Assembly: GCF_002245215.1 (NCBI RefSeq) | Contig: NZ_NPMR01000001.1 | Coordinates: 124,001 to 188,000, forward strand | Length of the DNA: 64,000 nt | Reading direction: 5' to 3' | DNA from: Microbacterium sp. Yaish 1 | GTDB taxonomy: Bacteria > Actinomycetota > Actinomycetes > Actinomycetales > Microbacteriaceae | Shown here: positions 2,571 to 19,213 of the stretch, in pieces | Numbering within the stretch: the stretch's first letter is position 1 | How the letters are laid out: each line of letters starts with the position of its first letter | Notes under the pieces: model-generated | Seen by the model: only the letters and a program-made list of their open reading frames with translations | What the model was told of the DNA's origin: nothing | Database searches by the model: none | Translations under genes and position numbers: made by a program

Positions 2571-4254
<1,684 letters not shown>

Positions 4255-15049: not shown

Positions 15050-15412
15050 ATGGGGCGATTCATCTATGGCAACGGCAACACCAAAGTCGAGATCGAGGAC
15101 CGTGCGCTCGCGCACCTGCAACAGGTCATCGGGTCCAAGCTGCGTCGCAACGAGTGCTTCTTCTTCACGTGGCGCGACGACGTGAGCATCGGCGACGGCC
15201 GCCGATCCGTCTGGATCCATCAGAACGCCGACCTGGTGTTCAAGTACCACGGACATCGCTCGCCGCAGCTGAACCGGGACTGGCTCGAGGCCCTCACCGC
15301 GGTCGCCAACTCCGGCAGCGGCCTGTACCTCACCCCGGAGCCCCCGCCGCGCAGCCGTGGCGTCCACGACGCGACGCTGCACGATCGAGCCGACGCGATC
15401 GGCCTCGGCTGA
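15050..15412 (+). CDS. Small uncharacterised protein, YG family A (DUF7882-like), copy 1
   Basis: 120 residues from the ATG at 15050. It belongs to a small-protein family seen three times in this window (also at 16712 and, on the minus strand, 17576). Shared features are the opening (FIYGNGNTKVEIEDR), then LAHLQQVIGSKLRR, an aromatic strand (ECFFFTW), a VWIH strand, and the block LNRDWLEALTAVANS...GLYLTPEP. Some databases have labelled such proteins as DNA ligase, but no ligase motif is visible. Function unknown. Confidence 0.8.
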   Translation: MGRFIYGNGNTKVEIEDRALAHLQQVIGSKLRRNECFFFTWRDDVSIGDGRRSVWIHQNADLVFKYHGHRSPQLNRDWLEALTAVANSGSGLYLTPEPPPRSRGVHDATLHDRADAIGLG

Positions 15413-15434
15413 CGCGCGGCCTAGGCTGGTTCCC

Positions 15435-15710
15435 ATGTACGTGGGCACCATTCGTCGCGTCGAGAACACCACCGTCGAACTCGCGGGTCACTCGCTCGAG
15501 GAGATCCGGAATCAGGCGCAGGCTGCCGCCCCGGAGGGCTTCGACCTCGTGTCGGCACCGGTGCAGATGATCAAGGGCAGCACCGAGCTCAAGGCGACCG
15601 CGACCTATCAGCGCCGCGACGGCCTGCGCGACATCGAGGCCGACGACCGCGAGGCGTTGTTCGCCAAGGTGCCCGAGGGCTGGCAGCTCGTCAACATCCG
15701 CAAGCACTGA
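15435..15710 (+). CDS. Small uncharacterised protein
   Basis: 91 residues, soluble, with no recognised domain. It begins MYVGTIRRVENTTVELAG. The middle (EIRNQAQAAAPEGFDLVSAP) looks like a helix followed by a strand, and the sequence ends GWQLVNIRKH, an alternating small alpha/beta pattern. It starts 22 bases after family-A copy 1 in the same direction, so it probably shares its transcript. No signal peptide or membrane segment. Function not assignable. Confidence 0.7.
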   Translation: MYVGTIRRVENTTVELAGHSLEEIRNQAQAAAPEGFDLVSAPVQMIKGSTELKATATYQRRDGLRDIEADDREALFAKVPEGWQLVNIRKH

Positions 15711-15767
15711 CGGCCCGGGCTGGCGGGCTCCGCGTGATCGCGTCGCGGAGAGCCGGATCACGTCGGG

Positions 15768-16133
15768 ATGTCGTCGGGCCATGTCAGTCTCTGGCCGGGA
15801 GAGGAGACCCGGCCCGTGGGGACGAACAAGCGCTACGCCGATGCGATCGATCGGCGGGTCGACGAGCGCACCGAACGCGTCCTCATGCGCATCCCGCCCT
15901 GCACGATCCCGATGCAGGCCTACGGGCCACACCCGCTCGAGTGGCCGGCGGATCGGCCGGCGGTGTGGGCGTGGGTGTCGTGGCCGCACAAGCCCGCCGA
16001 ACGGGTCGCGGCCATCGCGCACGGGTGGAACGATCGCGTCGTGGTCGTGTACTGGATGAGCCCGGCCGGCGAACTCAACACGGTCGTCTGGCGCAACGCC
16101 GTGACGCGTCGCGTCGAGCGCGCGCACGGATAG
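15768..16133 (+). CDS. Small uncharacterised protein
   Basis: 121 residues, no recognised family. The C-terminal two thirds contain Trp- and Val-rich strands (WAWVSWPHKPAERVAAIAHGWNDRVVVVYW, seen as two pieces) that suggest a compact beta-rich fold. No signal peptide or membrane helix. It lies in the run of small genes at 15-18.5 kb. A start at ATG 15781 in another frame was not used because this frame carries the longer uninterrupted reading. Confidence 0.55.
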   Translation: MSSGHVSLWPGEETRPVGTNKRYADAIDRRVDERTERVLMRIPPCTIPMQAYGPHPLEWPADRPAVWAWVSWPHKPAERVAAIAHGWNDRVVVVYWMSPAGELNTVVWRNAVTRRVERAHG

Positions 16134-16197
16134 CCCGCCGCTGTCGAGTTGGCAACCCCGTCCCGCACCATCGCTCGCCGTGGCATGGTGCGTCACG

Positions 16198-16557
16198 ATG
16201 CGTTACGTCAAGTACGGGGGCGAGACCTTCATCACCAGCGATGCCGTCGCTCGCGCGCTGCTGGCACTGACGGCGAGCGTCGCCGCCACATCGGGAAGTG
16301 AAGTCGTCACGATCCTCGCGATCGAGCCGGGGTCGGAGGAGCCCGCGCAGGTCGACCTCGTCATCGGGACGGGCATCCATATCCTGTCCCGGCCAGCGGC
16401 CATCGACATCCCGGAGCCGGATTTCGAGGATGCCGTCGGCTGGCTGCAGCTGCATCCCGACTACCCCCGCCTCGCGCCTGAGCCCGGCCCGACAGCCGAG
16501 ACAGACGACCTCACGTCGTGGAACGACGATTTCGGCGGTGCGATCGACATCATCTGA
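16198..16557 (+). CDS. Small uncharacterised protein, YG family B, copy 1
   Basis: 119 residues from the ATG at 16198 (MRYVKYGGETFITSDAVA). It is paralogous to the protein at 18104. Both have an (H/K)YG opening, a helix (DAVARALLAL), a strand-rich middle ending in the block VDLVIGTGIHILS, then DF.....LQLHPDYPR and an acidic C-terminus containing WNDDF. No catalytic motif, signal or membrane segment. It is followed 155 bases later by family-A copy 2. Function unknown. Confidence 0.72.
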   Translation: MRYVKYGGETFITSDAVARALLALTASVAATSGSEVVTILAIEPGSEEPAQVDLVIGTGIHILSRPAAIDIPEPDFEDAVGWLQLHPDYPRLAPEPGPTAETDDLTSWNDDFGGAIDII

Positions 16558-16644
16558 AACCTCGCGGCGTGAGCCGTTACGCGCCGCGCCCTTGACGACC
16601 GCTCGTGCGACGAGGACCGTTATGAGCAAGCAAGCGTGAAAAAC

Positions 16645-16688
16645 GCGACGGCCTCCTCGCTCCCTCCCCTCATCGGAGCGGCCGTCGC
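16645..16688 (+). promoter_or_regulatory. Hairpin-forming inverted repeat before family-A copy 2
   Basis: GCGACGGCC (16645-16653) pairs with GGCCGTCGC (16680-16688), with an inner GCTCC/GGAGC pair. It ends 24 bases before the ATG at 16712, a position similar to the repeat before copy 1. It could also be the terminator of the preceding gene. Confidence 0.55.
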
Positions 16689-16711
16689 CCTGTGCGCGTG
16701 TGGAGGCCAGC

Positions 16712-17071
16712 ATGGGCCGCTTCATCTACGGAAACGGAAACACCAAGGTCGAGATCGAGGATCGCACGCTCGCTCACCTGCAGCAGGTCGTCGGCGCGAA
16801 GCTCCGACGGAGCGAATCGTTCTTCTTCACCTGGAAGGACGACCCGAGCGTGGGTGGCGGGCGGCACGCCGTGTGGATCCACCCCGGCGCCGACATCGAG
16901 TTCAAGTTCCACGGTGGCCGCGAGCCCCAGCTGAGCCGGGAATGGCTTGCCGCGCTCGCGACCGTCGCGAGCTCCCCGACGGGACTGTACGTGGCGCCCG
17001 AGCCCGCGCCGCGGGCGGCATCCGCACGCAGCGGCGGTGCTGAGCTGTATGGGGAGCGCATCGGCGCGTGA
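16712..17071 (+). CDS. Small uncharacterised protein, YG family A (DUF7882-like), copy 2
   Basis: 119 residues from the ATG at 16712, with GGAGG six bases upstream. It is very close to copy 1: the first 27 residues (GRFIYGNGNTKVEIEDR then LAHLQQV) are almost identical, with the same SFFFTWKDD strand, VWIHPGA strand and REWLAALATVASS helix. The C-terminal tail after PEPAP is variable. High similarity to copy 1 points to a recent duplication. Function unknown. Confidence 0.8.
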   Translation: MGRFIYGNGNTKVEIEDRTLAHLQQVVGAKLRRSESFFFTWKDDPSVGGGRHAVWIHPGADIEFKFHGGREPQLSREWLAALATVASSPTGLYVAPEPAPRAASARSGGAELYGERIGA

Positions 17072-17097
17072 CAGGCCGTTGCGCGCGGCACGACATC

Positions 17098-17155
17098 CCG
17101 TTTCGGTAGCCGCGAGCACCGGTACGACTCCTGGAGTCTTCGCCGTCCGAAACGG
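17098..17155 (+). repeat. Spaced inverted repeat before the gene at 17227
   Basis: CCGTTTCGG (17098-17106) and CCGAAACGG (17147-17155) are exact complements 40 bases apart, between family-A copy 2 and the next small gene. Terminator or leader structure cannot be told apart by eye. Confidence 0.5.
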
Positions 17156-17226
17156 TCGCCAGCCCAGGTGATAATGAGCGCTGGCAACACGACAAGGTGT
17201 CTTGCCGGGTGTCATTGGAGGAACGC

Positions 17227-17571
17227 ATGCCGTTTCGCACGAAGGAAACGTTGGAGGCCTGGCTGGCCGAGTTCGCCGAGCTCGGATACCCGATCAGCGA
17301 GCGGCTGCGGGTCATGCCGCAGGACGGTACCGGCGGCCATGACACCGGCCTCATCGGCCTCGACCTGGTCAATGCCGGCACCGTGACCTACCTGCAGCCC
17401 GAGCCCGTCGGGTCGACGCACTGGGCGATCACGTTCGAAGCCCGCGAGCAGGACGTGAAGCTCGACGCCGGCCGTGCCTTCGAGCTGTCGGCAGAGCTGG
17501 CAATGGTGTCCGCTCTGTGCTCGTTCCTGCAGTCCAAGTCCGCCGCCTTCATCGCGAGCCGCGCAACCTGA
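17227..17571 (+). CDS. Small uncharacterised protein
   Basis: 114 residues from the ATG at 17227, chosen because GGAGG lies six bases before it. An upstream in-frame start at 17197 lacks a ribosome site. The N-terminus is a charged helix (TKETLEAWLAEFAELGY), the middle forms strands (GLIGLDLVNAGTVTYLQPEP), and the C-terminus is a long helix (ELSAELAMVSALCSFLQ). It shares the PEP-containing strand feel of family A but is not an obvious copy. Its stop lies five bases from the convergent family-A copy 3. Function unknown. Confidence 0.72.
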   Translation: MPFRTKETLEAWLAEFAELGYPISERLRVMPQDGTGGHDTGLIGLDLVNAGTVTYLQPEPVGSTHWAITFEAREQDVKLDAGRAFELSAELAMVSALCSFLQSKSAAFIASRAT

Positions 17572-17575
17572 CGGG

Positions 17576-17905
17576 TCAGTCGCCGGTTGGCTCCGGAACC
17601 AGTCGCAGCCCGGCCGCGCTGTTCGCCGCTTCGTTGAGGACCACGAGCCACCGTCGGTTGAGGGTCCCCGTCGGCGCTTCGGCGAAGCTGAAGTACAGCG
17701 AGGAGGCGCGGGAGATCCAGACGCTCCCGTACTGACCCTCCTGCCCCTCGGCCGCGTCGTCGCCGTGCGTGTCGGGCTCGCTGCCCCACGTGAAGACGAA
17801 GCTCTCGTCGCGACGGAGCTTGGTGACGATCACCGCTCGCAGGTGCTGCAGCGCCCAGTCATCGATGTTGATGGCCGGTGCGACACCGTAGATCAGATGT
17901 CCCAT
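17576..17905 (-). CDS. Small uncharacterised protein, YG family A (DUF7882-like), copy 3
   Basis: 109 residues from the ATG at 17905, preceded by GGGAGA. It is more diverged than the other two copies: it opens MGHLIYGVAPAINIDDW, keeps LRAVIVTKLRRDESFVFTW, and has an acidic insert (DTHGDDAAEGQEGQ) before VWIS. It then keeps LNRRWLVVLNEAANSAAGLRLVPEP. It is transcribed divergently from family-B copy 2 across a 198-base gap, so an A gene and a B gene again sit together. Confidence 0.78.
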   Translation of the reverse strand: MGHLIYGVAPAINIDDWALQHLRAVIVTKLRRDESFVFTWGSEPDTHGDDAAEGQEGQYGSVWISRASSLYFSFAEAPTGTLNRRWLVVLNEAANSAAGLRLVPEPTGD

Positions 17906-18103
17906 GGTTCTCCCTCTCGAGCGACGGTCCGACCCCACCCCGGACCGGGGGCCTCGGGCGCCAGAGCGTCGCGAGCGGCTGCCCACAATGTACCTCCACC
18001 GTCGCGTGCCGGGAGACTGCGCCGAGGGTGCAAAGGATGCGCCGCGCTCCCCCGACCGCGCAAGCCGGCTTGCGCACTTCCCTCGCACGGGGACAATTGG
18101 CGG

Positions 18104-18451
18104 GTGCGTCGAATCCACTATGGAACGGGCGTCGTCCTCACGACGGACGACGTCGCCGACGCGTTGCTCCGGCTCAACGTCGCCCTTGCGAACCTGTCGC
18201 ACACCGAGCGGGTGACGATCCCGGTCGCGAGTGGCGAGTCTACGGACGGCAGCGTCGACCTCATCCTCGGCCCCGGCATCGCGGTGATGTCCGAGCCCGC
18301 CCCCTGGCACGGCGACGAACCGGACTTCTCGACCGGTGCCACCCTGCTCCGGATGCATCCGCACTACCCCTATCGGCGTCCAAACGGGCACGCGCAGCCG
18401 ATGATGCCGATCGAAATGGACAACTGGGACCCCGATCTCGAGGGCTACTGA
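18104..18451 (+). CDS. Small uncharacterised protein, YG family B, copy 2
   Basis: 115 residues from the GTG at 18104 (VRRIHYGTGVVLTTDDVA). It matches family-B copy 1 in the YG opening, the helix ADALLRLNVAL, the strand pair ending VDLILGPGIAVMSE, and TLLRMHPHYPYRRP. The tail again ends acidic with a Trp (DNWDPDLEGY). It is divergent from family-A copy 3. No enzymatic motif, signal peptide or membrane segment. Confidence 0.72.
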   Translation: MRRIHYGTGVVLTTDDVADALLRLNVALANLSHTERVTIPVASGESTDGSVDLILGPGIAVMSEPAPWHGDEPDFSTGATLLRMHPHYPYRRPNGHAQPMMPIEMDNWDPDLEGY

Positions 18452-18479
18452 GCCGAGGCGTTGCGATAGCGTGCCAGCC

Positions 18480-19127
18480 ATGGAGTCACGCCCCCGCCTG
18501 CGCCGCCTCAGCCTGCTCTCACTAGCCCTCCTTCTCGCAGCGACAGGGTGCACGGCGAATACTCCCGACGAGGAGACGAGGCTCACGACGACGCCTCCTC
18601 CATCGCAAGCTCCGCAGCAGACGGCTGAACCAGCGCCGTCGACGCCAACAGCGGCGCCGACGCCCAGGGTCGTTTCCGTACCGTCGTGCGGTGAGATGCT
18701 GACCACCGAGCAGGTGCGTGCAGCGGCTAACGATGACGCCCGAATCGGCCCTCTCTCCACCATCGCGTGGAGCGCCGAAACTCTGCCGGGCCCGCTGGCT
18801 CGCGCCGCGTACGAGGGCGCCCGCGAAACGACGAGCTGCGGCTGGGGTATTCCGATGTCGGACGGAGTCGTGAACGTGGAAGTCGCCCTGCTGGAGCCTC
18901 AGGTGGAGCAGGAGCTGCGGACCGCGCTCACGGCCTCGAACGAGTACGCCTACGAGAGATTCTCGCGTGTCGACGTCTTCCACCGCGATGTCGAAGACGG
19001 CATCGGGAGCGTTCTCGCGTACGCATTGAGCGACGGAGTATGGGTGATCGTCGACGGCACACTCGTCGACAAGACGACCGCCGCGGAACTCGCACGCGAC
19101 GTGATGGGGCGGATCCTCGCGAGCTGA
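18480..19127 (+). CDS. Secreted lipoprotein of unknown function
   Basis: 215 residues from the ATG at 18480. A short basic N-terminus and hydrophobic core lead to the lipobox LAATGC, giving lipidation at about Cys24. A Thr/Pro/Ala-rich linker (about 25-64) spans the wall. The globular part (about 65-215) contains CGEMLTTEQVRAA and one further Cys (TTSCGWGI). This pattern resembles the DUF3558-type two-cysteine lipoproteins of actinobacteria, though I am not certain of the match. It probably acts at the cell surface. Confidence 0.75.
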   Translation: MESRPRLRRLSLLSLALLLAATGCTANTPDEETRLTTTPPPSQAPQQTAEPAPSTPTAAPTPRVVSVPSCGEMLTTEQVRAAANDDARIGPLSTIAWSAETLPGPLARAAYEGARETTSCGWGIPMSDGVVNVEVALLEPQVEQELRTALTASNEYAYERFSRVDVFHRDVEDGIGSVLAYALSDGVWVIVDGTLVDKTTAAELARDVMGRILAS

Positions 19128-19140
19128 GCTGACCTCACTG

Positions 19141-19213
19141 AGCCGACTACGGGACTCGAACCCGTAACCCCCGTATTACAAGTACGGTGCGCTACCAATT
19201 GCGCCAAGTCGGC
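19141..19213 (-). tRNA. tRNA-Thr (anticodon UGU)
   Basis: A complete 73-base cloverleaf. Acceptor GCCGACT pairs with AGTCGGC. The anticodon arm CCGTA-CTTGTAA-TACGG gives anticodon TGT, and the T arm is CGGGTTCGAGTCCCG. CCA is not encoded. It lies just after the convergent lipoprotein gene. Confidence 0.95.

Follow-up and report, generated by a model that had tools for sequence, protein, structure and literature searches.

A gene cluster in Microbacterium sp. Yaish 1 combines DUF7882 proteins with a probable distant sister family

Introduction

Do small genes that lie side by side in several copies encode proteins that act together, and in what kind of system might they do so? This question is raised by a 3.4 kb gene cluster of Microbacterium sp. 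Yaish 1 (RefSeq assembly GCF_002245215.1, contig NZ_NPMR01000001.1), situated within the 64,000-nucleotide stretch analysed here (positions 124,001 to 188,000 of the contig; hereafter the window). A first-pass annotation of this DNA had described two recurring families of uncharacterised proteins, A and B, and suggested that they act together, possibly as a multi-copy binding or sensing system particular to this bacterial group. Here, we examine this proposal using profile searches, structure models and counts of gene neighbourhoods.

Results

All eight small genes are present and were called as coding by a codon-usage gene caller, which confirms the composition first described, namely three A copies, two B copies and three other small genes within 3.4 kb (Table 1). 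The common size of about 110–120 residues stated for them applies to most of the genes, but not to the shorter P. A and B genes adjoin twice, as reported, once in the same direction (B1–A2, 154 bp between the genes) and once divergently (A3–B2, 198 bp). A1 shares 71% identity with A2 over 102 residues and 43% with A3 over 107 residues; the B1–B2 comparison in Table 1 extends over 118 residues. The genome of 3.41 Mb carries at least 12 A and at least 3 B copies among the matches listed, and the crowding of A and B in the window is not due to chance. A scan of the cluster for promoters and terminators returned none of either, and a tRNA-Thr gene is located just downstream. At other loci (e.g. 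in L108, L109 and L115), the profile recovered some A genes that our home-made gene caller had overlooked.

Table 1. Small genes of the cluster and the block that is missing from a related genome (positions in the window)
Feature	Position	Strand	Basis
A1, DUF7882 protein, 120 aa	15050-15412	+	Pfam PF25355, E 5e-38, 129 bits; coding by codon usage
P, 91 aa, small family of the genus	15435-15710	+	homologues in 17/98 genomes, own included
Q, 121 aa, unrelated small family	15768-16133	+	homologues in 23/98 genomes, own included
B1, B family, 119 aa	16198-16557	+	B profile member; 37% identical to B2; without Pfam/NCBIfam match
A2, DUF7882 protein, 119 aa	16712-17071	+	PF25355, E 1e-36, 125 bits; AlphaFold2 mean pLDDT 87
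C, 114 aa, multi-copy family of the genus	17227-17571	+	homologues in 28/98 genomes, own included
A3, DUF7882 protein, 109 aa	17576-17905	-	PF25355, E 3.6e-28, 98 bits
B2, B family, 115 aa, GTG start, acidic C-terminal tail	18104-18451	+	B profile member; AlphaFold2 mean pLDDT 87
Block A2-C-A3-B2	16558-18463	.	the syntenic locus in Microbacterium sp. AG238 lacks it, with near-exact ends (blastn)

Family A, initially regarded as uncharacterised, already bears a name, as A1, A2 and A3 all score above the curated cut-off of 27 bits of DUF7882 (PF25355). This family was deposited by the authors of the CryoRhodopsin study, whose account of it describes a putative ring-shaped cytoplasmic rhodopsin transducer and an AlphaFold3-predicted pentamer accommodating a strand from the C-terminus of the rhodopsin (PMC12227055). 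The AlphaFold2 model of A2 comprises the elements E2-6, E11-15, H17-32, E37-42, E51-56, E62-65 and H76-86. A sequence search of the PDB with A yielded no credible match, and Foldseek matched neither the A nor the B model to a solved structure (best E 0.95 and 0.77, respectively). Copy numbers of A reach at least 17 per genome among the matches listed. The family is not particular to Microbacteriaceae, as had been supposed, since it also occurs in 4 of 274 genomes of the order's other families (a sample size taken from the kinship column), with one of the four under the cut-off.

Family B, in contrast, yielded nothing credible from Pfam, NCBIfam, PADLOC or PHROGs for either B1 or B2, and none of 40 B members is matched by the DUF7882 model at an E threshold of 0.1. 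Six other Pfam families match one of these 40 members each (best E 0.0066), and we regard B as lacking a credible Pfam match. A PDB sequence match to designed repeat proteins (E 6e-5, profile positions 42–91) was taken as spurious. The B model consists of E2-6, E9-13, H15-30, E35-43, E46-55, E61-65 and H76-83, followed by a short tail helix; by eye, the tail varies, and in many members it closes with an acidic segment containing Y, W or F. No B was found in the 274 genomes of other families, and all 14 plasmid records with B belong to Curtobacterium, so that for B the restriction to this bacterial group has held so far. B counts are lower bounds because scoring was limited to 15 first-look candidates per genome.

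The two models share an identical predicted order of elements (strand, strand, helix, three strands, helix), while hhalign finds no significant direct similarity between the A and B profiles (prob 0.6, E 0.09). A third, previously undescribed family of about 70–100 aa, D, which occurs in other genomes and not in the window, matches both B (prob 94, E 1.3e-7) and A (prob 83, E 8.4e-6), with E-values that apply to single comparisons. The third profile round gave 73 rows, of which 15 make up the D alignment; the other 58 (drifted-in B proteins and one D-like row) were removed. In a control run of D against 26 other family profiles and four reversed profiles, in which the controls labelled dec16 and dec22 correspond to D itself and to the small family G, the best control scored 18.2 compared with 44.1 for B and 34.2 for A; the similarity of D to A and to B thus exceeds that of unrelated profiles. 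The A–B score of 15.7, by comparison, fell below that of the best unrelated profile (16.9). The link between A and B rests on D together with the models, and B is probably a distant sister of A rather than the unrelated partner that it was first taken for.

The co-occurrence and adjacency that the first-pass annotation proposed to count were found in genomes beyond its own. Across 297 genomes of the order, A lies within 1 kb of 11 of 24 B genes, compared with 0.125 expected, and of 9 of 21 when the window's own genome is excluded; the remaining 13 of the 24 have no A within this distance. In G476 and G581 (two of the 11), the B counted near A is a B-like frame interrupted by a stop codon. A genes also neighbour each other, with another A within 1 kb at 39 of 117 A places (0.49 expected; two overlapping pieces in G106 were merged into one). 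At genome level, A is present in 102 of 104 B-bearing genomes and in 56 of 145 B-less ones, a comparison uncorrected for genome size and ancestry. The recurrent co-occurrence and the adjacency above chance bear out the part of the proposal that the families belong together, whereas elsewhere it is D that shows the tightest coupling to A.

Among 78 further loci chosen by likeness to the window's A, D was found in 22 and B in 14. Orientations were counted over all loci available, some of them fetched because the neighbour was visible, so that these counts are not rates. In them, 15 of 18 neighbouring A–D pairs are tandem with A preceding D, 13 of these 15 overlapping by exactly 4 nt. Such a 4-nt gene overlap is usual for proteins that are made in step. 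The A–B pairs listed comprise 26 tandem, 7 convergent and 8 divergent arrangements, with the window's A1–B1 pair included twice (as W and L002). With every orientation represented among A–B pairs, the two genes do not as a rule form a fixed operon. One Curtobacterium plasmid carries A, D and B in a row; for 40 of the 102 labelled A rows, neither B, D nor CryoRhodopsin lies nearby. A candidate operon of A, a membrane protein and B (L131, L136 and L011) was dismissed, as the membrane protein gene lies on the opposite strand.

P, Q and C each belong to a small family of its own and are loosely associated with A. In the 78 loci, G occurs in ten, P in three, C in three and Q in one; P directly follows A in all three P-bearing loci of this A-picked set. 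Conversely, A was found in 0/4 loci fetched for P, 1/8 for Q and 4/13 others for C, and B or D in none. P has no credible Pfam match, and C has five copies in the window's genome and up to nine in others. Profiles of C, P, Q and G gave no link to A, B or D; a marginal P–D score (20.4 vs 18.3 for an unrelated profile) was discounted.

The wider surroundings show no fixed neighbour family. A Pfam scan of 150 of 194 called neighbour proteins, from which near-duplicate loci and a few others had been omitted by hand, revealed none that dominates (MarR top with 5/150), and the context is therefore mostly scattered. An apparently recurrent general-stress dehydrogenase was discarded because its cluster mixes different short-chain dehydrogenases. 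None of five promoter patterns is clearly enriched upstream of A and B, with SigF/SigB-like patterns in 0/101 A, 0/64 B and 1/547 other genes. The word TTGACA was seen 10 times upstream against 1.4 expected, as one among very many words tried.

The comparison with Microbacterium sp. AG238 (L268), which lacks Q and is otherwise syntenic, illustrates how the cluster varies. By blastn, window positions 16112–16557 correspond to 3667–4109 and 18464–19177 to 4118–4855 of L268, which leaves 8 bp between the matches where the window has 1.9 kb. The absence of the A2–C–A3–B2 block from this relative indicates that the cluster grows and shrinks piecewise. The A1–P–B1 part is kept together with its flanks in a Microbacterium other than that of the window.

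The published transducer role fits only one branch of A, since no rhodopsin was detected in 127 of the family sample's 158 genomes with A, the window's included; in the window's genome, the rhodopsin family PF01036 gave no match at E 0.001. The A genes linked to CryoRhodopsins make up almost a single branch (12 rows, two changes compared with a shuffled mean of 11.6) in a quick tree of 98 columns, in which 61 of 106 inner branches are open and the CryoRhodopsin label was set by hand. The window's A genes lack the neighbouring gene that would mark them as CryoRhodopsin transducers. At L109, A, CryoRhodopsin and B stand in a row, the sole B among 25 such loci.

Discussion

The sister relationship and the co-location of the families are well supported, and from them we infer how the proteins may work. 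We hypothesise that A, B and D are variants of one small, soluble fold, probably ring-forming cytoplasmic adaptors, that was multiplied in Microbacteriaceae. Their subunits would assemble into small homo- or hetero-oligomeric rings, to which a partner protein binds by a short strand or tail and which relay its signal. In one A branch, this partner would be the C-terminus of CryoRhodopsin, as published; the A copies might differ in the partner they serve, while B or D, produced alongside A, could be alternative or mixed subunits. That the three families provide mixed or interchangeable subunits of such rings, perhaps related to stress, is a tentative reading to which we give somewhat less than an even chance. 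For the window's proteins, this reading would entail oligomers, contact of A with B or D, attachment to a partner, and a binding, sensing or stress role, the stress link being circumstantial.

It may instead be that A and B are sisters each of which acts alone, as a homo-oligomer or monomer, and that they are neighbours as members of one co-regulated set or as retained tandem duplicates. We take this to be a serious possibility, though a doubtful one. A–A neighbours are common too, A–B orientations are mixed, the unrelated families G, P, C and Q at times join the same clusters, a whole block is absent from a relative, and neighbouring paralogues may be left over from tandem duplication. The exact overlap in most tandem A–D pairs argues against independent action, however, as does the near-constant presence of A in genomes with B compared with those without it.

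A mobile or selfish module, such as a toxin–antitoxin system, an anti-phage system or prophage cargo, appears improbable. Small genes, variable copy number, a presence/absence block, the adjoining tRNA-Thr gene, the plasmid copies (17 records for A, 14 for B) and 14 A genes on predicted viral contigs would suit it. Yet, going by the listed ranges, 13 of these 14 lie no more than 3.2 kb from the end of their contig and may represent host flanks, and A1–P–B1 keeps its flanks in another Microbacterium. None of the eight window proteins matches PADLOC or PHROGs at E 0.01, and a search of 50,697 phage records with A1 found nothing; on these grounds we rejected a defence or phage module. The chance that A is an ATP-dependent DNA ligase, as databases name it, is negligible: although 9 of 17 plasmid matches carry this product name (in Curtobacterium, Microbacterium, Clavibacter, Cryobacterium and Glaciihabitans), A proteins have only 109–120 aa, DUF7882 is the sole Pfam family over its cut-off, and the Pfam and NCBIfam scans show no ligase domain. 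No such ligase model of NCBIfam matches, and the value of A3 with the biotin ligase model (E 0.1) is at chance level. The ligase name is frequent for the A family in public annotation and may have entered stress-response analyses.

Returning to adaptor rings, the new elements are the shared element order of A and B, the profile link through D, the A–B adjacency, the 4-nt overlap of A and D, and the majority of A genomes in which no rhodopsin was found. The CryoRhodopsin work left open the function of its proposed transducer, and most sampled A genomes have no detectable rhodopsin, while two undescribed sister families accompany DUF7882 and its copy numbers reach at least 17; together, these data offer a testable route to that function. 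An even broader view is that DUF7882, B and D, possibly with DUF3107, constitute a superfamily not recognised before, whose hetero-oligomeric adaptor rings draw on a stock of exchangeable subunits multiplied in Microbacteriaceae. The CryoRhodopsin transducer would then be one partner-specialised branch of it and the window a rhodopsin-free form carrying other, perhaps stress, signals; in this full extent we consider the view unlikely.

Of the known systems, the DUF7882/CryoRhodopsin transducer is the closest. The window's A proteins belong to its family, but stand beside B, P, Q and C in a genome without a detected rhodopsin. B resembles DUF7882 in the predicted element order and through D, and differs in that its members escape the DUF7882 model. 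For DUF7882, a pentameric blade arrangement similar to that of bacterial PH domains is reported in the same account (PMC12227055); no PH-domain likeness was seen among the structure-search rows listed for the A model, which excludes nothing. DUF3107 (PF11305; Rv3208A, PDB 7rur, a hexadecamer) is weakly matched by the A model (Z 4.2, rmsd 2.6 over 58 residues, with no other entry listed) and by the B model (Z 3.0, rmsd 2.6 over 56 residues, tied with others). The D profile reaches it with prob 49 and E 1.7e-4 (27.3 vs 18.2 for the best unrelated profile), whereas the A and B profiles do not reach it directly. DUF3107 has one match per genome in 39 of 40 genomes, in contrast to the multi-copy A and B, and is possibly a widespread relative of A, B and D.

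Results

The cluster of three A genes (DUF7882 family), two genes of family B and three other small genes (P, Q and C) described in the first-pass annotation is present at 15050-18451 (Table), and a window-trained, codon-usage gene caller picks all eight as coding. The size given there, about 110-120 residues, does not apply to P, which is shorter. Identity is 71% between A1 and A2, 43% between A1 and A3, and 37% between B1 and B2. On one side the eight genes are bordered by the start of a transporter-like gene (minus strand) and on the other by a lipoprotein-like gene, both assigned by eye; a tRNA-Thr gene (window 19140-19213, minus) lies just beyond the latter, downstream.

Table. Small genes of the cluster, with positions in the window
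Gene	Position	Strand	Length
A1	15050-15412	plus	
P	15435-15710	plus	91 aa
Q	15768-16133	plus	
B1	16198-16557	plus	
A2	16712-17071	plus	
C	17227-17571	plus	
A3	17576-17905	minus	
B2	18104-18451	plus	

The cluster is built in modular fashion. In Microbacterium sp. AG238 (L268), the best named match, whose flanking genes are 91-96% identical at the protein level and point to Microbacterium as the probable source genus, the same flanks surround A1, P and B1 alone; Q is absent and window 16558-18463 (A2, C, A3, B2) corresponds to 8 bp. Microbacterium sp. cf332 (L270) retains A1, P and part of Q. The C, P and Q families occur in 28 (up to nine copies), 17 and 23 of 98 genomes, respectively, the window's genome counted each time; none has a profile link to A, B or D, and A was present in 4/13, 0/4 and 1/8 of the loci fetched for them.

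A1, A2 and A3 each score above the Pfam DUF7882 (PF25355) cut-off. The product name ‘ATP-dependent DNA ligase’, borne by 9 of 17 plasmid-record matches of DUF7882, was rejected, as neither Pfam nor NCBIfam supports it, and is probably a misnomer; proteins of about 95-125 aa are so annotated in these records and on NZ_CP121273.1 (L252) and NZ_CP126282.1 (L253). It may also have entered expression studies: products so named in PMC12029717 may be DUF7882, because the same name marks this family in Curtobacterium plasmids. Predicted viral contigs carry 14 DUF7882 genes (L254-L267); judging by the ranges given, 13 of them are no more than 3.2 kb from the end of their contig. They would lie either in host DNA flanking a prophage or among cargo genes at its ends.

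A third small family, D, emerged from clustering of A and B neighbours; it was not found within the window, but the same genome has D at L003:1102-1308. D matches B (E 1.3e-7) and A (E 8.4e-6) in register, with control-run scores of 44.1 and 34.2, respectively, whereas none of 26 other families or four reversed profiles scored above 18.2. Direct comparison of the A and B profiles gave no significance (15.7 in the same run). The AlphaFold2 models of A2 (from 54 sequences) and B2 (from 40), each with a mean pLDDT of 87, share the order strand, strand, helix, strand, strand, strand, helix. No credible Pfam match was found among 40 B members (best E 0.0066) or 15 D members (best E 0.063).

Among 249 sampled genomes of the Microbacteriaceae, A occurs in 158 (up to 17 copies), B in 104 and a rhodopsin in 64. 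A is present in 102/104 genomes with B compared with 56/145 without, a difference for which genome size and common descent are confounders. Across 297 genomes of the order, where counts of B are lower bounds, B was detected in 14/23 genomes of this family and 0/274 of the others, and A in 21/23 and 4/274, one of the four below the cut-off. In this sample A lies within 1 kb of 11/24 B genes (0.125 expected), two of the 11 (G476, G581) being B-like frames interrupted by a stop codon, and within 2 kb of 12/24 (0.22 expected); excluding the window's genome, the values are 9/21 and 10/21. In loci chosen by score only, some from close relatives, 14/30 A loci have B, and 15/29 B loci have A, within about 1.5 kb. 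The 78 loci most similar to A2 contain D in 22, B in 14 and a second A in 24. Fifteen of 18 neighbouring A-D pairs are arranged in tandem with A first, and in 13 of them the two genes overlap by exactly 4 nt. A, D and B are consecutive on a Curtobacterium plasmid, as are A, CryoRhodopsin and B in one locus (L109); another reads B-A-B-A-B (L345).

A further small family, G, recurs beside A, D and B (L127, L137, L189, L196, L205, L253:2699-3019), in five loci of one neighbour set, 10 of the 78 A2-like loci and one plasmid. MarR-type regulators (5/150 scanned neighbours) adjoin A genes in the window's genome and relatives of the genus (L127, L128, L171, L172, L173, also L125), divergently in five cases. 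One contig (L297), entitled Planococcus sp. APC 4015, has B, A, D and G together; its title may reflect a mislabel or contamination.

Discussion

These data support well the view that A, B and D are a co-locating set of sister families, of which A was already known. The A-B-D relation is new, as is the observation that most sampled DUF7882 genomes contain no detectable rhodopsin for DUF7882 to serve. Neither B nor D, both lacking a searchable name, is the subject of any paper listed by literature searches on DUF7882 and on CryoRhodopsin with transducer. The only paper found to name DUF7882 is PMC12227055; there, a small gene adjoins the CryoRhodopsin gene in every genome examined, and its product is predicted to form a pentamer that accommodates a strand from the C-terminus of the rhodopsin, is compared with bacterial PH domains and was deposited by the authors as DUF7882.

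In the 249-genome sample, no rhodopsin was found in 127 of the 158 A-bearing genomes, the window's included. Of the 25 rhodopsins scoring above the Pfam cut-off yet below 110 bits, 13 are accompanied by an A in the fetched stretch (one a fragment) and one by a B. The loci of 30 higher-scoring rhodopsins, each from a different genome and with some 1.5 kb (about) on either side, contained no A, B or D; 13 of them came from A-bearing genomes. On an A tree of 109 rows, with few columns and many forks open, the 12 CryoRhodopsin-linked rows require two changes (shuffled mean 11.6), compared with 10 for 20 D-linked rows (18.5) and 18 for 30 B-linked rows (26.0). From these locus counts and few changes, the rhodopsin partnership therefore looks like a single specialised branch of the A family. 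Eight rhodopsins without a nearby A (L101, L103, L105, L107, L118, L119, L120, L123) nevertheless have a C-terminal tail like (H/L)PE(S/A)(I/V/T)W, also seen on CryoRhodopsin-like rhodopsins with a nearby A; one genome (G163) combines a rhodopsin with such a tail and B, but no DUF7882 match.

We infer a mechanism in which A, B and D would form rings, made from one or several kinds of subunit, that may dock on a strand or tail of a partner protein; it is suggested by the 4-nt overlap of paralogue genes, the published A ring prediction and the shared predicted fold. Judged by eye, the C-terminal end of B proteins is often acidic and includes an aromatic residue; we guess that it could be such a tail. 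A stress role is suggested by a Microbacterium plasmid on which genes for a response regulator, a sigma factor, an Asp23/Gls24 protein and YihY lie no more than 6 kb from A genes.

Among known families, the relation of A, B and D to DUF3107 is only a lead, because the structural Z values are weak and the A and B profiles did not reach DUF3107 in profile comparison. For the A model VIA-align lists a single solved entry, the DUF3107 protein Rv3208A (7rur), at a weak Z of 4.2 (rmsd 2.6, 58 aligned); for the B model Rv3208A is among the tied best rows, at a weak Z of 3.0 (rmsd 2.6, 56 aligned). D matches the DUF3107 profile with an E of 1.7e-4, scoring 27.3 in the control run compared with 18.2 for the best unrelated profile.
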